Shown here piece after piece: positions 2,699 through 38,722 of a stretch of DNA of 64,000 nt. Source of the stretch: Streptomyces sp. NBC_01304. Its GTDB lineage: Bacteria > Actinomycetota > Actinomycetes > Streptomycetales > Streptomycetaceae. The notes beneath the pieces were generated by a model. It ran no database searches. It worked only from the letters and a program-made list of their open reading frames with translations, and was not told the origin of the DNA. Within the stretch, counting starts at the first letter, position 1; every line of letters starts with the position of its first letter. Both the position numbers and the translations under genes were made by a program. The stretch lies in NCBI RefSeq assembly GCF_035975855.1, contig NZ_CP109055.1, positions 5,642,001 through 5,706,000 on the forward strand. The letters are read 5' to 3'.

Positions 2699-3775
2699 AT
2701 GGGAGGCTCTGTTCATTCCGAGCCTGAAGTCGAGGAGAGTGAAGCCTTGCGGTCCAACGCCAACATCGCGGGACCGATGACCGATCCGGTCCCCGGTCCC
2801 CGTACCGAGTCGGTGGGGGAGGATGTTTCACGTGAAACACCGCCCCCGATGGACGACACCCCCATCGGTCGCGCTGCCCAACTGGCAGTAGAGGCGCTGG
2901 GTCGAGCCGGCGAGGGTCTCCCACGACCCGAGCAGACCCGGGTCATGGTGGTCGCCAACCAGAAGGGCGGGGTCGGCAAGACCACCACCACGGTCAATAT
3001 GGCCGCCTCACTCGCGCTGCACGGTGCGCGGGTTCTGGTGGTCGACCTCGACCCGCAGGGCAACGCTTCCACGGCCCTGGGGATCGACCATCACGCCGAA
3101 GTCCCTTCCATCTACGACGTGTTGGTGGAGAGCAAGCCGCTCTCCGAGGTCGTGCAGCCGGTCCCCGATGTCGAGGGCCTCTTCTGCGCTCCTGCCACGA
3201 TCGATCTCGCCGGTGCGGAGATCGAGCTGGTGTCGCTGGTGGCCCGCGAGAGCAGGCTGCAGCGTGCGATCCAGGCGTATGAGCAGCCCCTCGACTACAT
3301 CCTCATCGACTGCCCGCCCTCGCTGGGGCTGTTGACGGTCAACGCATTGGTGGCGGGCGCAGAGGTGCTCATCCCCATCCAGTGCGAGTACTACGCGCTC
3401 GAAGGCCTCGGCCAGCTGCTGCGCAATGTCGACCTGGTGCGCGGTCACCTCAACCCCGATCTGCACGTGTCGACCATCCTGCTCACCATGTACGACGGCC
3501 GGACCCGGCTCGCCTCCCAGGTGGCCGACGAGGTGCGCAACCACTTCGGTGAAGAAGTCCTTAGGACGAGCATTCCCCGTTCGGTCCGTATCTCGGAGGC
3601 GCCCAGCTACGGGCAGACCGTGCTGACCTACGATCCCGGATCAAGCGGTGCGCTCTCCTATCTCGAAGCAGCCCGGGAGATGGCGCTGCGCGGGGTCGGG
3701 GTGCGCTATGACGCACAGCACGGCCAGACAGGCGCACAGAACGATCAGCAGAGCATGGCGGAGGGGATCCAGTGA
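2699..3775 (+). CDS. parA: Chromosome partitioning ATPase ParA
   Basis: Walker-type ATPase that works with ParB-parS complexes; in Streptomyces it recruits ParB to hyphal tips and spaces chromosomes in sporulation septation. From ATG 2699 it has 358 residues. The deviant Walker A motif [10 protein letters not shown] is at residues 89-98, Walker A' is in the strand VVDLDPQGN, and Walker B is in [10 protein letters not shown]. The start is uncertain. The frame is open from GTG 2537; TTG 2636 has a strong GGGGGA but coincides with a DnaA box; TTG 2750 has GAGGAG. parB overlaps the stop by 4 bases, so the two are translationally coupled. A perfect parS is embedded in codons near residue 43. Confidence 0.95.
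2825..2838. other. parS site, perfect, inside parA
   Basis: GTTTCACGTGAAAC within the parA N-terminal coding region, read as Val-Ser-Arg-Glu-Thr. Confidence 0.95.
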
Positions 3776-4866
3776 GCGAGCGACGTAGAGGTCTGGGGCG
3801 CGGACTCGGCGCTCTGATCCCCGCGGCCCCGACCGCGGAGAAGTCGGCACCGCCGGCCATGGGCGGGGCAACGAGCTCCCCCTCGGCCGTGCCGGTGCTC
3901 ACCGCCGAGCGTGGTGTGGCCGCCGCGAAGGTGGCGACCCTTCCGCAGGGCAACGTTCCACGTGAAACGGAAGAGCCCACCGTCGAGGCCGTGGTGGTGG
4001 AGGAGCCTTCTGCCGGAGCTCATTTCGCCGAGCTGCCGCTGGACTTCATCACCCCCAACCCGCGACAGCCGCGCGAGGTCTTCGACGAGGACGCTCTGGC
4101 CGAGCTCATCACCTCCATCAAGGAGGTCGGGCTTCTTCAGCCGGTTGTCGTACGGCAGTTGAGTGCTTCCCGGTACGAGCTCATCATGGGCGAGCGCCGC
4201 TGGCGTGCCTGCCGTGAGGCCGGCCTGGAGCGGATTCCCGCGATCGTGCGGGCCACGGAGGACGAGAAGCTTCTCCTGGACGCGCTCCTGGAGAACCTGC
4301 ACCGAGCACAGCTGAACCCGCTGGAAGAGGCCGCGGCCTACGACCAGTTGCTGAAGGACTTCAACTGCACGCACGACCAGCTGGCGGACCGGATCGGTCG
4401 CTCACGCCCGCAGGTCTCCAACACCCTGCGTCTGCTCAAGCTGTCGCCGGCGGTGCAGCGCAGGGTCGCCGCCGGGGTGCTGTCCGCGGGTCATGCTCGG
4501 GCGCTGCTCTCCGTCGAGGACTCCGAGGAACAGGAGCGGCTCGCTCATCGCATCGTGGCCGAAGGGCTGTCGGTGCGTGCGGTCGAGGAGATCGTGACCC
4601 TGATGGGGTCCCGGCCGAAGACAGCGCCGCGGAACAAGGGCCCTCGGGCCGGAGGTCGTCTGTCGCCGGCGCTGACCGATCTCGCCTCTCGCCTCTCGGA
4701 CCGGTTCGAGACGCGGGTGAAGGTGGACCTGGGACAGAAGAAGGGCAAGATCGTCGTGGAGTTCGCCTCCATGGACGACCTGGAGCGCATCCTGGGCACG
4801 CTCGCCCCGGGTGAGGGGCCGGTCCTCGAGAAGAGCCTCACAGAGGACGAGGACGACGAGAGCTGA
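3772..4866 (+). CDS. parB: Chromosome partitioning protein ParB (CTPase)
   Basis: CTP-dependent DNA clamp that loads at parS and spreads, organising the origin region. 364 residues. N-terminal ParA-interacting peptide ([16 protein letters not shown]); ParB box NPRQPREVF near 96-104; CTP-binding motif GERRWR at 140-145; central helix-turn-helix ([22 protein letters not shown]); C-terminal dimerisation region after about residue 295. The GTG overlaps the parA stop (GTGA) with GGAGGGG just upstream. A one-mismatch parS lies inside the gene. An imperfect hairpin follows the stop. The many parS sites in this window are its targets. Confidence 0.97.
3955..3968. other. parS site, one mismatch, inside parB
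   Basis: GTTCCACGTGAAAC within the parB coding sequence (Val-Pro-Arg-Glu-Thr, residues 62-66). It differs from the consensus by T to C at position 4. Confidence 0.8.
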
Positions 4867-5807: not shown

Positions 5808-5856
5808 ACGTGAAACGGGCCCGCCCCCTGCTACAGGGGGCGGGCCCGTTTCACGT
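5808..5856. terminator. Long perfect hairpin merged with parS
   Basis: Perfect 23-bp stem (5808-5830 with 5834-5856) and a 3-base loop. The outer part of each arm is a parS half-site and the inner part is a G+C-rich terminator stem. The right arm continues into the full parS at 5848-5861. It lies between the converging GNAT gene and trxA, so it should terminate both. Confidence 0.8.
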
Positions 5857-5861
5857 GAAAC
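5848..5861. other. parS site, perfect
   Basis: GTTTCACGTGAAAC between the GNAT gene and trxA, partly inside the terminator hairpin arm. Confidence 0.95.
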
Positions 5862-15738: not shown

Positions 15739-17184
15739 GTGCCGAACGCCAATGAAGACAACCCCAGTGCACTGAGCCAGGTGCAGCGCCGCGCAGTCAG
15801 TGAACTGCTGCGGGTGTCCCCTGTCGCCGACGACCTCGCCCGCCGTTTTCAGGAGGCCGGGTTCTCGCTGGCGCTGGTCGGCGGGTCGGTTCGCGACGCG
15901 CTGCTCGGCCGGCTCGGCAACGACCTGGACTTCACGACCGACGCCCGCCCCGACGACGTACTGAAGATCGTCCGGCCGTGGGCGGACTCGGTGTGGGAGG
16001 TCGGGATCGCCTTCGGCACGGTCGGCTGCCAGAAGGCCGGCTACCAGATCGAGGTGACGACGTACCGCTCGGAGGCGTACGACCGCACCTCGCGCAAGCC
16101 CGAGGTGTCCTACGGCGACTCCATCGAGCAGGACCTCGTGCGCCGGGACTTCACGGTCAACGCGATGGCGGTGGCACTCCCGGAGAAGGACTTCATCGAC
16201 CCGCACGGTGGTCTCGAGGACCTCGCGGAGCGCGTCCTGCGCACGCCCAGCACGCCGGAGGAGTCGTTCTCGGACGACCCGCTGCGCATGATGCGGGCGG
16301 CACGGTTCGCGGCACAGCTCGACTTCGAGGTGGCGCCCGAGGTGGTCGCCGCGATGAAGGCGATGGCCGAGCGCATCGAGATCGTGTCGGCCGAGCGTGT
16401 GCGGGACGAACTGAACAAGCTGCTGCTCTCCGCCCACCCGCGCAAGGGCCTCGCCCTGCTCGTGGACACCGGCCTCGCGGACCACGTACTGCCGGAGCTT
16501 CCGGCATTGCGCCTGGAGAGCGATGAGCACCACCGGCACAAGGACGTGTACGAGCACTCGCTGACAGTCCTTGAGCAGGCGATCGCGCTGGAGGAGGACG
16601 GACCGGACCTCACCCTGCGGATCGCTGCGCTGCTGCACGACATCGGCAAGCCGAAGACTCGGCGCTTCGAGTCGGACGGCCGGGTCTCCTTCCACCACCA
16701 CGAGGTGGTGGGCGCCAAGATGACCAAGAAGCGGATGCTGGCGCTCAAGTACTCCAATGAGCTCGTGAAGGACGTGTCACGGCTCGTCGAGCTGCATCTG
16801 CGCTTCCACGGCTATGGCACGGGTGAGTGGACGGATTCGGCTGTACGTCGCTACGTACGGGACGCCGGGCCGCTGCTGTCGCGGTTGCACAAGCTGACCC
16901 GCTCGGACTGCACGACCCGGAACAAGCGCAAGGCCAATGCGCTGTCGCGGGCGTACGACGGCCTGGAGGAGCGCGTCGCTCGACTCCAGGAGCAGGAGGA
17001 GCTCGACTCGATCCGGCCCGACCTCGACGGCAACGAGATCATGGAGGTCCTGGGGGTTCGCCCGGGGCCGGCGATCGGGCAGGCCTACAAGTTCCTGCTG
17101 GAGCTTCGGCTGGAGAACGGGCCGATGGAGCGGGATGCGGCGGTGGCTGCGCTCAAGGAGTGGTGGGCCTTGCAGCAGAGCTGA
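15739..17184 (+). CDS. cca: CCA tRNA nucleotidyltransferase (HD-containing)
   Basis: Adds or repairs the 3' CCA of tRNA; class II nucleotidyltransferase with a C-terminal HD domain, 481 residues. The nucleotidyltransferase motif is ALVGGSVRDALLGR with the metal-binding pair in NDLDFTT (residues about 40-62). RRDFTVNAMA and the neck region follow; the HD motif HDIGKPKTRR is near residue 300. GTG 15739 is chosen because the protein then starts just before the family domain. No ribosome binding site is visible, and TACCCT at 15725-15730 could be the -10 of a leaderless transcript. Two parS-centred palindromes follow the gene. Confidence 0.93.
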   Translation: MPNANEDNPSALSQVQRRAVSELLRVSPVADDLARRFQEAGFSLALVGGSVRDALLGRLGNDLDFTTDARPDDVLKIVRPWADSVWEVGIAFGTVGCQKAGYQIEVTTYRSEAYDRTSRKPEVSYGDSIEQDLVRRDFTVNAMAVALPEKDFIDPHGGLEDLAERVLRTPSTPEESFSDDPLRMMRAARFAAQLDFEVAPEVVAAMKAMAERIEIVSAERVRDELNKLLLSAHPRKGLALLVDTGLADHVLPELPALRLESDEHHRHKDVYEHSLTVLEQAIALEEDGPDLTLRIAALLHDIGKPKTRRFESDGRVSFHHHEVVGAKMTKKRMLALKYSNELVKDVSRLVELHLRFHGYGTGEWTDSAVRRYVRDAGPLLSRLHKLTRSDCTTRNKRKANALSRAYDGLEERVARLQEQEELDSIRPDLDGNEIMEVLGVRPGPAIGQAYKFLLELRLENGPMERDAAVAALKEWWALQQS

Positions 17185-17189
17185 GAAGG

Positions 17190-17235
17190 CATGGAATGGC
17201 GCCATGTTTCACGTGAAACATGGCGCCATTCCATG
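17190..17235. terminator. 46-bp perfect palindrome centred on parS
   Basis: Perfect inverted repeat of 46 bases, arms 17190-17212 and 17213-17235, with no spacer. Its centre is the parS at 17206-17219. Starting 5 bases after the cca stop, the transcript should form a long stem, so it is a probable bidirectional terminator as well as a ParB site. Confidence 0.75.
17206..17219. other. parS site, perfect
   Basis: GTTTCACGTGAAAC at the centre of the 46-bp palindrome after cca. Confidence 0.95.
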
Positions 17236-17242
17236 GACGCGT

Positions 17243-17276
17243 ACGGGGCGGTGTTTCACGTGAAACACCGCCCCGT
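17243..17276. terminator. 34-bp perfect palindrome centred on parS
   Basis: Second perfect palindrome, arms 17243-17259 and 17260-17276, with a GGGGCGGT/ACCGCCCC flank around the parS core. It lies 8 bases after the first palindrome and 18 bases before the stop of the converging LppU-like gene. Confidence 0.75.
17253..17266. other. parS site, perfect
   Basis: GTTTCACGTGAAAC at the centre of the 34-bp palindrome, 47 bases from the previous parS. Confidence 0.95.
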
Positions 17277-17294: not shown

Positions 17295-17825
17295 CTACGG
17301 CTTGTGGGTGGCGAGGCAGAGAAGGAAGTCCTCGCCGTCGCCGCTCTGGCTGTAGACCGTGTCGAACTTCTTGCCCTCGGCCTCGCACTTGGCGCTGGCT
17401 TCGGTGTCGCTGGTGTAGGTACCAGAGACCTTCCCGACCACCTCGAACTGAGCCTTGGAGTCGCTGCAGTCGACGACCTCGAGGTCCGGGTTGGTGGAGC
17501 TGCTGCTGCCCTGGTGCATGCAGTCGCCCACCGCTGCGGTGTCCGCGTCGTCCTGGCTGGCTATGTAGCCGACGATGGCCACGATGGCGAAGACGACCAC
17601 GATGCCGATGTTCTTGATGGTCTTGAAGCTGACCCGGGAACGCGGCGGCTGCGGCGCCGGACCCTGGTTGAAGTAGGGCGAGGGCTGCTGCGGGACGCCG
17701 GGCTGGCCAGGCTGCTGGGGGTAGCCCTGCTGCGGGTAGCCCTGAGGGGCCTGCTGCTGACCGTACGGGTTCCCACCCTGGGGCTGGCCGTACGGGTTCT
17801 GGCCCTGGGGCGGCGGAGTGGTCAC
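17295..17825 (-). CDS. LppU/SCO3897-like membrane-anchored protein
   Basis: 176 residues of unknown function. A Pro/Gln/Gly/Tyr-rich cytoplasmic N-terminus of about 60 residues (repeats like NPYGQPQGG and YPQQGYPQQ) is followed by one transmembrane helix (IGIVVVFAIVAIVGYIA, about residues 72-90). A small extracytoplasmic domain with four cysteines follows (GDCMHQ, VVDCSD, AKCEAE, LLCLATH), probably disulfide bonded. The cysteine pattern and position after cca fit the LppU/SCO3897 family. GTG 17825 with GAGGGGG is preferred over longer starts that overlap the MFS gene. Confidence 0.8.
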   Translation of the reverse strand: MTTPPPQGQNPYGQPQGGNPYGQQQAPQGYPQQGYPQQPGQPGVPQQPSPYFNQGPAPQPPRSRVSFKTIKNIGIVVVFAIVAIVGYIASQDDADTAAVGDCMHQGSSSSTNPDLEVVDCSDSKAQFEVVGKVSGTYTSDTEASAKCEAEGKKFDTVYSQSGDGEDFLLCLATHKP

Positions 17826-17937: not shown

Positions 17938-19200
17938 TTACTGCGCGTCAGATCGGTACATAGCGGCAGCAAGTGCCGCGTAGATGACAGCAATCGTTAT
18001 CACCAGAGGGACCGATCGTCCGTCAGAAGGCAGTACCAGCGCAGTCACTGCGGCCGCCCCCACGAAGGCGACGTTGAACAGCACGTCGTAAACGGAGAAG
18101 ATCCGGCCACGGAAGGCGTCGTCCACCTGCGACTGCACCGTCGTGTCGGTGGCGATCTTCGCGCCCTGAGTGGTGAAGCCCAGCACGAACGCGGCGATCA
18201 GCGTCGGGACCGGGGCGAAAGACAGCCCCAGAGCCGGTTCGAGGAGGGCGGCGGTGCTCGCGCACAAGGTGATCCAGCCGGCCGGCCCCCACTTGCCGGC
18301 CGCCCAGGGTGTCGCCACCGCAGCTGCGAAGAAGCCCGCCCCGGAGACGCCCACCGCGAGCCCGAGCAGGGCCAGGCCTTCGGACTCGCGTGACGTCCAG
18401 GCGTACCGGCACAGCATCAGCACCATCACGAGCAGCCCGCCATAGCAGAAGCGCATCAGCGTCATCGCACCCAACGCCCTTGCCGCAGCGCGCCGTTCGG
18501 GGGCGGCGAGGTGTCGTACGCCTGCAGCAAGGCCCTGTGCGGTGGAGGCCAGCGCCGACCGCAGTCGTGGCGGCACCAGGTCGGGCTCGGGTCCGAGCAG
18601 GGTGCGGGGGATGCGCAGTGCGGTGAGGGCCGAGCAGAGGTAGAGCGCCGCGCCCAGGAGCACGACTGCCGCGTCGGAGTCCGAGACGAGGAGACGTACG
18701 GCGAAGGCGAGACCCGCGCCCGCGGTCGCGGCGAGTGTGCCGGCGGTCGGGGACAGGGAGTTGGCGAGGACCAGGCGGTCGGCGTCGACCACGCGGGGCA
18801 GTGCTGCCGAGAGTCCCGCCAGGACGAAGCGGTTGACGGCTGTCACGCACAGGGCGGAGACGTAGAAGAGCCAGTCCGGGACGCTGCTCAGGATCAGGAG
18901 CGCGGTGATGCAGGCGAGCACGGCACGCAGCAGGTTGCCGTAGAGGAAGACCTGGCGGCGCTGCCAGCGGTCCAGGAGCACGCCGGCGAAGGGGCCGATG
19001 AGGGAGTAGGGGAGGAGCAGGACGGCCATGGCCGAGGCGATGGCCGTGGCCGAGGTCTGTTTCTCCGGGGAGAAGACGACGTAGGTGGCGAGCGCGACTT
19101 GGTAGACGCCGTCCGCACCTTGGGAGAGGAGCCGGACGGCGAGCAGCTGCCGGAAATGCCGGAAGCGGAGGAGTACGCGCAGGTCACGTACGACGGCCAT
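17938..19200 (-). CDS. MFS transporter, putative exporter
   Basis: Major facilitator superfamily protein of 420 residues with about 12 transmembrane helices. The A-loop-like signature between helices 2 and 3 reads GVLLDRWQRRQVFL. The closest general type is the DHA3-like exporters (cd06173-type). Substrate unknown. The first residues are basic (AVVRDLRVLLRFRHFRQL), typical of this subgroup. ATG 19200 has GAGG 9 bases ahead. It lies downstream of ino1 but behind a strong hairpin, so it probably has its own promoter or relies on readthrough. Confidence 0.85.
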   Translation of the reverse strand: MAVVRDLRVLLRFRHFRQLLAVRLLSQGADGVYQVALATYVVFSPEKQTSATAIASAMAVLLLPYSLIGPFAGVLLDRWQRRQVFLYGNLLRAVLACITALLILSSVPDWLFYVSALCVTAVNRFVLAGLSAALPRVVDADRLVLANSLSPTAGTLAATAGAGLAFAVRLLVSDSDAAVVLLGAALYLCSALTALRIPRTLLGPEPDLVPPRLRSALASTAQGLAAGVRHLAAPERRAAARALGAMTLMRFCYGGLLVMVLMLCRYAWTSRESEGLALLGLAVGVSGAGFFAAAVATPWAAGKWGPAGWITLCASTAALLEPALGLSFAPVPTLIAAFVLGFTTQGAKIATDTTVQSQVDDAFRGRIFSVYDVLFNVAFVGAAAVTALVLPSDGRSVPLVITIAVIYAALAAAMYRSDAQ

Positions 19201-36613: not shown

Positions 36614-36670
36614 TCAATCGCTCGGCGAAATTGACTCGCCATGGCGTGCAGCTGCCGATGAACTGTGGTC

Positions 36671-38092
36671 ATGACGCGATCTCTTGCAGACCAAGCCGCT
36701 GAACTCCCGGACAACGAGGACTCCTTCACGGAACTTCTCCCCGGCACCCGCCGGGCCCTGCTGCACCGGACGGCCGCGGAGCAGGCCAATGGGCGAGCCC
36801 CCTCACTCGTTGCCGCGGTGGTCCGCGACGGCCGGATCGTGTGGACCGGGAGCCGGACCATGGTGGAAGGCCATGGGCCGGACGGCGATACGCAGTACCG
36901 GATCGGGTCGATCACCAAGACCTTCACGGCCGTTCTGGTCATGCGGCTGCGCGACGAGGGCCTGCTCGACCTCGGCGATCCCTTGGACAAGCACCTGCCC
37001 GGCACGGGCGTCGGCGAGGTGACCGTCGGACAACTGCTCGCGCACACCGGGGGGTTGGCGGCAGAGACGCCGGGTGAGTGGTGGGAGCGAACGCCCGCCG
37101 CGCTGCGCCCCGAGCTCGACGATGTATTGGGCGAGAAGCCGTTTCGGCATCCGGTCGGGCAGCGCCACCACTACTCGAACCCCGGATATACGCTGCTCGG
37201 CTCGCTGGTCGAGAAGCTGCGGGGTGCGCCGTGGGACGAGGTGCTGCGGCGAGAGGTGCTCGAACCGCTCGGCCTGCATCGCACCACGGCGCAGCCTCAG
37301 GCACCCCATGCGGGTGGCTGGGCGGTGCATCCCTGGGCGGACGTGATGCTGCCCGAGCCCCTGGAGGACCTGGGGCTGATGGCGCCTGCCGGACAGCTAT
37401 GGTCGACGGTTCACGACCTGGCGCGCTTCATGGTCTTCCTGGCCAAGGGGGACGAGCGGGTGCTGAGTGCGGAGTCGGTGCGTGAGATGCGGGCGCCGGC
37501 CGCGCCGCCCGAGTCGGGTGACTGGGACGGTGGTTACGGCCTTGGGGTGCAGCTCTTCCGTGGGGACAGGGGGAGCCTGGCCGGGCACGCGGGATCGCTG
37601 CCGGGGTTCGTCGCCTGTGCACTGCTGAGCGAGGAGGACGGGCTCGCCGCCGTCGCGCTGGCCAACGCCACCTCGGGGCCGCGGGTCGTGACGCTGGCCG
37701 CCGAGCTTCTGGGCATCGTGGCCGAGGCCGAGCCGCGGATTCCCGAGCCGTGGCGCCCGTTGGCCGAAGTCCGCCAGGAAGTCCTGGAGTTGGCTGGGTC
37801 CTGGTACTGGGGCACGTGTGCCTTCGGGCTCCGTCTCGTCGCGGACGACGGCCTGGAACTCGGCCCGCTGGCCGGAGCCGGCCGCAGCGCGCGCTTCCGG
37901 GCCGAGGACGACGGCAGCTGGACCGGGCTCAACGGCTACTACGCGGGAGAGACGCTGCGTGCGGTGCGGCGTGCGGACGGCTCGGTGAGCCATCTCGACC
38001 TCGGGTCCTTCGTGTTCACGCGTGAGCCGTACGAAGCTGAGGCACCGGTGCCGGGCGGTGTGGACCCGGAGGGCTGGCGTGCCTTCGGGTGA
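36671..38092 (+). CDS. Serine beta-lactamase / class C-like hydrolase
   Basis: 473 residues, beta-lactamase (PF00144) fold. Nucleophile motif Ser80-Ile-Thr-Lys83 (S-x-x-K); Tyr169-Ser-Asn (Y-x-N equivalent); third motif HAG in GSLAGHAGSLPG replacing KTG. These are features of esterase, D-aminopeptidase and class C-like enzymes, so the substrate could be an ester or peptide rather than a beta-lactam. A C-terminal beta-barrel-like domain follows (about 370-473). No signal peptide is visible, so it is probably cytoplasmic. ATG 36671; GTG 36665 is an alternative. Divergent from tetR. Confidence 0.87.
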   Translation: MTRSLADQAAELPDNEDSFTELLPGTRRALLHRTAAEQANGRAPSLVAAVVRDGRIVWTGSRTMVEGHGPDGDTQYRIGSITKTFTAVLVMRLRDEGLLDLGDPLDKHLPGTGVGEVTVGQLLAHTGGLAAETPGEWWERTPAALRPELDDVLGEKPFRHPVGQRHHYSNPGYTLLGSLVEKLRGAPWDEVLRREVLEPLGLHRTTAQPQAPHAGGWAVHPWADVMLPEPLEDLGLMAPAGQLWSTVHDLARFMVFLAKGDERVLSAESVREMRAPAAPPESGDWDGGYGLGVQLFRGDRGSLAGHAGSLPGFVACALLSEEDGLAAVALANATSGPRVVTLAAELLGIVAEAEPRIPEPWRPLAEVRQEVLELAGSWYWGTCAFGLRLVADDGLELGPLAGAGRSARFRAEDDGSWTGLNGYYAGETLRAVRRADGSVSHLDLGSFVFTREPYEAEAPVPGGVDPEGWRAFG

Positions 38093-38120
38093 GTGACCGC
38101 CGGTCTGCGCTGCTTGGCGT

Positions 38121-38200
38121 GAGCAGTGACCGATAGGTCTGAGCAGTGACCGAACAGCCTGAGCAGTGACGGGTCGGTCTGAGCAGTGACTGGTCGGACT
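38121..38200 (+). repeat. 20-bp x4 tandem repeat
   Basis: Four abutting 20-base units (38121, 38141, 38161, 38181). The first ten bases GAGCAGTGAC are identical in all four; the second halves vary around CNNNNNGGTCT. It lies after the beta-lactamase gene and runs straight into the 36-bp palindrome that carries a parS site. Confidence 0.85.
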
Positions 38201-38201
38201 G

Positions 38202-38237
38202 AGTGGCGTCCTGTTTCACGTGAAACAGGACGCCACT
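38202..38237. terminator. 36-bp perfect palindrome centred on parS
   Basis: Arms 38202-38219 and 38220-38237, perfect. It lies between the converging beta-lactamase and GNAT genes, so it can act as a bidirectional terminator. Confidence 0.75.
38213..38226. other. parS site, perfect
   Basis: GTTTCACGTGAAAC at the centre of the 36-bp palindrome. Confidence 0.95.
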
Positions 38238-38269: not shown

Positions 38270-38722
38270 TCAGAGCTGCAGCTTGAAGCCCACGTGCGAA
38301 GCCTCGAATCCGAGCCGCTCGTAGAAGCGGTGGGCATCCGTGCGCGAGGCGTTGGACGTCAGTTGTACCAACTGGCAGCCCTGGCGCCGGGATTCGTCGA
38401 TGGCCCACTCGATGAACTGCGTTCCGAGACCGCTGGCCCGCTCATCGGCGTGAACCCGCACTGCCTCGATGAGCGCACGTGAACTGCCCCGCAGGGACAG
38501 GCCCGGAATGACGGTGAGCTGGAGGGTGCCCACGACGCGACCCCCGCGTTCGGCGACCACCAGGTGTTGGTTGGGGTCACCAGCCAGACGCTCAAAGGCG
38601 GCGGCGTACGGGGTGAGGTCGTCGGGGGACTCGCGCTGGGCACCCAGCGTGTCATCAGCCAGCATGGCCACAATCGCCGCGATGTCGGCTGAGGTCGCGG
38701 GCCGAATCTGAAGATCGCTCAT
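38270..38722 (-). CDS. GNAT family N-acetyltransferase
   Basis: 150 residues, one GNAT domain. Starts SDLQIRPATSADIAAIVAMLADD. Motif A: ALIEAVRVHADERASGLGTQFIEW; motif B: TSNASRTDAHRFYERLGFEASHVGFKL. Resembles small acetyltransferases acting on amino compounds; substrate unknown. ATG 38722. It lies 66 bases downstream of the marR gene on the same strand and may be co-transcribed. Confidence 0.88.
   Translation of the reverse strand: MSDLQIRPATSADIAAIVAMLADDTLGAQRESPDDLTPYAAAFERLAGDPNQHLVVAERGGRVVGTLQLTVIPGLSLRGSSRALIEAVRVHADERASGLGTQFIEWAIDESRRQGCQLVQLTSNASRTDAHRFYERLGFEASHVGFKLQL

Follow-up and report, generated by a model that had tools for sequence, protein, structure and literature searches.

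Do the two parS copies that lie between cca and the gene converging on it serve as ParB-binding sites alone, or is the DNA around them also maintained as an RNA hairpin? The question was raised by the preliminary description of the window (the whole stretch of DNA analysed, 64 kb), which had placed two perfect palindromes of 46 and 34 bp, each centred on parS and separated by 7 bases, between cca and an LppU-like gene. Direct reading and measurement reproduced the lengths, the centres and the gap exactly, and the gene assignments (TIGR02692 and NF049863) placed the pair in the interval named (Table 1).

Two parS-centred palindromes at the 3' end of cca

Table 1. Features of the 64-kb window discussed in the text
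Feature	Position	Strand	Remarks
ParA-type ATPase	2849-3775		
ParB	3859-4866		PF17762, PF02195
Variant layout	5808..5856		23-bp-stem hairpin; base formed by the left part of parS 5848-5861 and a mirrored partial parS
cca, CCA tRNA nucleotidyltransferase	15739..17184	+	TIGR02692, 824 bits (cut-off 438.8); start codon uncertain (home-made gene caller)
Hairpin 1, 46-bp perfect palindrome, parS-centred	17190..17235		21-bp stem, 4-nt loop
parS core GTTTCACGTGAAAC, tip of hairpin 1	17206..17219		exact match
Spacer separating the palindromes	17236..17242		7 bp
Hairpin 2, 34-bp perfect palindrome, parS-centred	17243..17276		15-bp stem, 4-nt loop
parS core GTTTCACGTGAAAC, tip of hairpin 2	17253..17266		exact match
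LppU/SCO3897-family gene, converging on cca	17295..17825	-	NF049863, 60.9 bits (cut-off 25); gene start uncertain
MFS transporter gene	17938..19200	-	
PF00144 gene, converging on the 38-kb hairpin	36665-38092	+	
Second parS-centred hairpin locus (38-kb locus)	38202..38237		core 38213-38226, 11 perfect flank pairs
GNAT gene, converging on the 38-kb hairpin	38270-38722	-	

Hairpin 1 lies 5 bp from the cca stop and hairpin 2 lies 18 bp from the stop of the LppU-like gene, with 16 perfectly paired flank positions per side around the first core and 10 around the second. Folding of the intergenic region as RNA gave -76.9 kcal/mol (z -9.6) for the + strand and -72.9 kcal/mol (z -10.9) for the - strand, and both folds were dominated by hairpins 1 and 2 with their ACGU 4-nt loops, besides one short weak hairpin. 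Folding each palindrome by itself gave stems of 21 and 15 bp. By RNA folding, a stable GC-rich stem-loop is thus present 3' of the cca stop, as in a terminator, and it forms on either strand between converging genes, as in a bidirectional one. The sequence has no U-tract next to either side of the hairpins, which sets them apart from canonical intrinsic terminators, and in 61 of 94 genomes of relatives only 0-2 of the 10 nt that follow the site-2 stem were T. A consensus terminator scan returned no site at the cca parS pair, and there were no Rfam matches at gathering score in 15000-40000.

Both cca cores are exact copies of GTTTCACGTGAAAC and are clustered with other parS near a par locus that encodes the cognate ParB. 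The window contained 14 parS matches with at most 2 mismatches, as compared with 0.09 expected by chance, and all 19 genome-wide matches with at most 1 mismatch fell within 5.57-5.77 Mb. Binding of parS by ParB in vivo has been reported for S. venezuelae (PMC4852455). In the present strain, ParB would be expected to occupy the cca sites. Only three of the 19 genomic parS had at least 10 perfect flank pairs, namely the cca pair (16 and 10) and the site at 38213 (11), the other 16 having 0-4; when mismatches were allowed, the same three sites reached flank scores of 41, 32 and 29. A fourth outlier, at C1:5769561, scored 23.5 with 0 perfect pairs, and the remaining 15 scored at most 11. This fourth site (C1:5769561-5769574; L020, 1562-1575) is a one-mismatch parS with imperfectly paired flanks in a region called codirectional intergenic. 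A chance palindrome was ruled out by these flank-pair measurements, by the shuffles in relatives described below and by random-position scores, as a flank score of at least 14 was reached at 0.9% of 14,000 random positions in the relatives' loci, coding sequence included.

Pairing of the flanks among relatives

We collected 117 Streptomyces cca loci (30 of the 198 matched genomes, 80 of at least 581 relatives, and 7 more), a sample biased to close relatives because the closest Cca matches were kept, and dropped 8 duplicates to obtain 109 distinct cca 3' regions. In relatives with no LppU-like gene called in between, the MFS gene was the converging neighbour of cca. The 260 nt that follow the cca stop contained two exact parS in 95 regions, one in 11, three in 2 and none in 1, a region of low-complexity G and C (L105); as cores were located by exact match, their invariance is partly by construction. 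For 94 of the 95 regions with two parS (the other contained an N), pairing was counted at each successive flank position, starting next to the core. At both sites, flank positions 2-11 paired above shuffles with two to four pair types, and the observed pairing exceeded the largest of 500 shuffles at every one of these positions except site 2 position 6, where it tied. At site 1, position 3 was paired in 89 of 94 regions (41.9 in shuffles) and position 4 in 83 (36.1), while at site 2 position 2 was paired in 82 (31.0) and position 9 in 78 (46.2). The weakest case was site 2 position 6 (82 of 94, 77.2 in shuffles), where the letters hardly vary, and pairing weakened over positions 12-16. Position 1 was nearly fixed as T/A, which is uninformative on pairing and matches the expectation for a ParB site. 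The alignment among Streptomyces species proposed as a check in the preliminary description therefore gave the result it had foreseen, with flanks that covary as their letters change.

Since shuffles disregard kinship, changes were also reconstructed on a cca gene tree (FastTree, midpoint root). Over all 14 positions, double changes from one Watson-Crick pair to another numbered 117 at site 1 and 113 at site 2, as compared with approximately 23.4 and 28.3 after shuffling. In ranges picked after viewing the shuffle results, there were 95 such changes at site 1 positions 2-9 (approximately 13.9 shuffled), spread over 72 branches, and 92 at site 2 positions 2-11 (approximately 16.4 shuffled), spread over 60 branches. 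On the same tree, pairing was broken 142 times at site 1 and 178 times at site 2 over all 14 positions; within the narrower ranges, site 1 had 74 breaks and 21 changes to wobble, and site 2 had 83 and 31, respectively. Among 17 sister pairs with a cca divergence of at most 8%, 52 one-sided differences outnumbered 14 compensated ones, and a further 17 differences were two-sided with at least one member unpaired. Compensatory change that conserves pairing was thus found together with many losses of pairing. The proposal that selection for a hairpin is added to ParB binding gains from this covariation, from the controls at other loci and from the relation to other hairpins (see below), although pairing is not rigid. 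These sequence comparisons leave it well supported that selection acts to keep the hairpin as well as the parS word.

A flank score of at least 14 was reached by site 1 in 78 and by site 2 in 83 of the 94 genomes. At this threshold both sites were paired in 67 genomes, site 1 only in 11, site 2 only in 16 and neither in 0, as compared with 1.9 genomes expected to lack both under independence (0.9-3.1 over three thresholds); this is a weak effect, and only suggestive of two hairpin copies that back each other up. Overall, 105 of the 109 cca regions had at least one parS with a flank score of at least 14 (95 of 95 two-site, 8 of 11 one-site and 2 of 2 three-site regions), the four without being L028, L038, L082 and L105. 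The spacing between the two centres was 41-47 in 59 of 94 regions and 33-95 in the rest, and we claim no helical phasing of the sites. In one relative (L055, 11485 onward), the parS core of the second hairpin has one changed base and the long stem is retained, possibly a hairpin that has outlived its centromere site.

Other parS sites and other hairpins at gene ends

We classed 510 parS in 140 loci (up to 21.5 kb) by gene context, using a home-made codon-usage caller; 7 more were dropped because of locus ends or N. Perfect flank extension had a median of 9 among the 138 sites in the convergent cca position and of 1 in every other class. Extensions of at least 6 were found in 105 of 138 cca sites, 23 of 113 other convergent, 11 of 112 codirectional, 1 of 25 divergent, 7 of 104 genic and 0 of 18 edge sites. 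Likewise, pairing at positions 3-6 was 89-95% for the 138 cca sites and 83-90% for the 29 orthologous sites of the 38-kb locus, as compared with 19-66%, at most 14 points from shuffled values, in four control groups (an intragenic locus, 67 sites; a codirectional locus, 78; divergent sites, 25; a convergent locus beside ribosomal protein L9, 65). These intragenic, codirectional, divergent and other convergent controls rule out paired flanks as a general property of parS. As the palindromic nucleus is identical at all parS groups, mutation driven by the nucleus alone fails to explain the arms.

To relate the parS-centred stems to other hairpins, we scored the parS flanks in 238 parS-bearing intergenic regions and, with the cores masked, the best other hairpin. 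These regions are what remained of the 510 rows after leaving out 104 genic, 18 edge, 138 in a region already represented, 11 longer than 600 nt and 1 with N. Thresholds of 14 for the flanks and 26 for the other hairpin were picked after a first look; best hairpins from 40 random sequences of 70% GC had a 95th percentile of 28.5. Of the convergent regions (154), 91 had only a parS-centred hairpin, 48 only another one, 5 both and 10 neither. The corresponding numbers were 10, 45, 1 and 13 for codirectional regions (69), and 1, 2, 0 and 12 for divergent regions (15). Over nine threshold pairs (24, 28 or 32 for the other hairpin combined with 10, 14 or 18 for the flanks), the convergent regions gave 88-93 parS-only, 40-51 other-only, 3-9 both and 7-17 neither. 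Most of the either/or pattern comes from differences between loci, and an individual locus seldom switches. Thus, 88 of the 91 parS-only convergent regions came from cca (68) or the 38-kb locus (20), and 44 of the 48 other-only regions came from the 30-kb (36) and 5.8-kb (8) loci. Within the 38-kb locus (27 regions), 20 were parS-only and 3 other-only; one codirectional locus (48 regions) had 43 other-only, 3 parS-only, 1 both and 1 neither. Related genomes were counted separately, and for this reason Fisher values are not relied on.

A paired parS was present in all 69 regions identified as cca facing an LppU-like (39) or MFS (30) gene, a count to be read with the 10 of 80 named loci that fell in other classes or had no usable region, including L082, which has no well-paired parS. 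The best hairpin had a median score of 35.5 in 163 convergent regions without parS and reached 26 in 101 of them, as compared with a median of 19.5 and 22 regions reaching 26 among 198 divergent regions without parS; by these scores, strong hairpins are frequent at convergent gene ends without being universal. Convergent position alone was rejected as a sufficient explanation of the paired flanks, as the 30-kb and 5.8-kb loci mostly have another hairpin and unpaired parS flanks. Ahead of the 38-kb hairpin, a short unit similar to GAGCAGTGACCG recurs several times in nearly identical form over the stretch 38093-38200. Two further layouts were seen. The hairpin near 5.8 kb is a variant that uses parS at its base (Table 1), and in some relatives two parS make up both hairpin arms.

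Of 41 further cca 3' regions read, one belonged to the genus and 40 came from the 51 family members found outside it (16 genera); in 23 of these 40, a parS-like core lay in the first 220 nt past the cca stop. The best hairpin was parS-centred in 13 of the 40, and 10 of these scored at least 26. In three genera (g2, g5 and g11; 10 genomes) the cca 3' stretch lacked parS and held ordinary hairpins scoring 29-58.5. In the sister genus g7, 8 of 9 genomes (G246, G243, G234, G240, G204, G228, G237 and G249) carried 5-11 copies of GTTCCACGTGGAAC, mostly on the cca-bearing contig, as compared with at most one copy in 7 further genomes searched, and GTTTCACGTGAAAC persisted at 2-11 copies, fewer than or similar to GTTCCACGTGGAAC. 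Among the nine g7 cca 3' regions, 5 had the symmetric variant, 4 of them with at least 9 perfect flank pairs; 2 had mixed cores only, 1 a standard and a mixed core, and 1 the standard core only. The parS consensus of this genus seems to have shifted partly to GTTCCACGTGGAAC, with the cca 3' regions partly following, so that the core seems to track the centromere word and the stem to track pairing. In the wider phylum, parS was found in 77 of 118 genomes sampled and 29 loci were read; with the gene caller trained on the 64-kb window, contexts outside the family are unsafe. Outside Streptomyces, 2 of 50 parS (26 loci) had a flank score of at least 14 (L262 and L264); we rejected a phylum-wide trait on this count and claim no generality beyond the family. 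The parS at L264, 1501-1514 (G317, same phylum), lies outside the family and has long, imperfectly paired flanks scoring 29.5, in a context called divergent, a call that is unsafe.

A candidate bidirectional terminator and its alternatives

We consider it likely that the cca palindromes are tandem, symmetric, U-lacking bidirectional terminators centred on parS between cca and the converging gene. In this reading both are composite sites. Each 14-bp core is a parS of the oriC-proximal centromere, and mostly GC-rich flanks, variable in their letters but paired, extend the palindrome, which would form an RNA hairpin. RNA polymerase leaving cca or the opposing LppU-like or MFS gene would transcribe one or two long hairpins, with the parS half-sites as upper stem and ACGU loop and the flanks as lower stem. 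Such a hairpin could end transcripts from both strands, those of cca on one and those of its converging LppU-like or MFS neighbour on the second, the two copies may serve as mutual back-up, and ParB would load on the same DNA. The sequences show the anatomy, its conservation, the covariation, the confinement to certain gene ends and the usual lack of another strong hairpin at those ends; we infer that transcription stops at the hairpins and that both functions simply occupy the same DNA. Because no U-tract is present, we set the hairpins beside the structured U-lacking 3' ends mapped by Term-seq in S. clavuligerus, which have been interpreted either as I-shaped terminators or as Rho-dependent ends that were trimmed (PMC8269248). 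Termination seems to be stronger at U-rich than at U-lacking ends in S. avermitilis (PMC8780764), so that termination at the parS hairpins may be partial.

Mutation might by itself lengthen the arms if template switching at the palindromic nucleus copied one arm onto the other, giving long arms with no selection for a hairpin. This mechanism has been proposed to generate RNA hairpins (PMC8794818), and two or more compensated changes coincided on 19 of the 72 branches at site 1 and on 21 of the 60 at site 2. The preliminary description had argued that random drift would not keep the bases paired and that selection follows, reasoning that overlooks template-switch mutation, which is able to perfect hairpin arms (PMC8794818). 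Nevertheless, intragenic, codirectional, other convergent and divergent parS share the nucleus and mostly show no arm growth, and paired flanks are found mainly where another strong hairpin is absent, which makes a purely mutational origin improbable in our judgement. Template switching may help to perfect the arms; it could supply paired changes, with selection deciding where they are kept (PMC8794818). We give still less credit to the view that symmetric flanks serve ParB, through contacts beyond the 14 bp or a cruciform that improves loading. T/A predominates at position 1 of the cca, 38-kb, intragenic and divergent sites, and A/T is frequent at position 2 of cca site 1 and of the intragenic locus, which fits a slightly longer ParB site; past position 2, however, letters vary and pairing is kept, a pattern not expected of base-specific contact, and pairing is absent from the other parS groups. 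A cruciform may still play a part.

The hairpin might instead act mainly as a 3' stabiliser after Rho-dependent termination and trimming, or as a barrier to antisense RNA. This is the most serious of the alternatives, although we regard it as rather unlikely, and it overlaps with the terminator reading, so that the likelihoods given to the two are not exclusive. It would agree with the missing U-tract and with the possibly trimmed Rho-dependent origin of U-lacking ends in S. clavuligerus (PMC8269248), but symmetry, tandem copies and convergent placement are in line with bidirectional termination too, and on sequence alone the two readings look the same. A ParB clamp on parS that itself blocks the converging RNA polymerase, with the flanks only making adjustments, would be in keeping with the 108 of 109 regions that have one or more exact parS in the 260 nt past the cca stop and with a ParB gene within the window. 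It leaves the flank pairing unexplained, however, and convergent parS loci elsewhere mostly retain another hairpin, and we hold it to be as remote as the view that the flanks serve ParB.

Returning to parS-centred bidirectional terminators, functional coupling of parS and terminator, in which the terminator shields the ParB-loading site from converging RNA polymerases and/or the formation of 3' ends at cca and its partner gene is adjusted by ParB-CTP clamps, seems doubtful to us. If they were coupled, the shared palindrome would be an insulated centromere element of the Streptomycetaceae and not a matter of DNA economy. If the terminator reading is true, bacterial centromere sites can be building blocks of terminators, in which the ParB word stays constant and the stem letters change in step, and this would give a reason for the placement of parS at some gene ends, as well as a natural setting in which to study possible interference between ParB loading and transcription. 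The apparent word shift to GTTCCACGTGGAAC in g7, partly followed at cca, means that the two selections may be separable.

The array resembles the oriC-proximal parS arrays known from Streptomyces, with an identical core word gathered into a single zone of the chromosome (PMC8743542, PMC4852455) and a similar copy number (19 here, as compared with a mean of 22.8 in 20 streptomycete genomes; PMC8743542). The available text of that parS survey and of the S. venezuelae ParB ChIP study (PMC4852455) makes no mention of palindromic flanks or terminators, and we found no description of parS-centred terminators in titles and abstract openings of the open-licence literature, among the matches listed. 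The U-lacking 3' ends and I-shaped terminators of Streptomyces likewise have a strong gene-end hairpin without a U-tract (PMC8269248); here, in contrast, the tip is parS and two symmetric hairpins stand in tandem. Bidirectional transcript ends between opposite genes, described in the same source, also share a symmetric hairpin, which in the present case embeds a ParB-binding word. The closest precedent in principle is the terminators of Neisseria and Pasteurellaceae that contain uptake signals, where a word recognised genome-wide likewise lies within a hairpin and one stretch serves two systems (PMC1852404). As far as that source goes, those hairpins are formed by closely spaced complementary copies, whereas here one self-palindromic tip carries variable arms, so that the likeness is one of analogy only; a genomic word within terminators is the known principle, and a centromere word in that place is what would be new.
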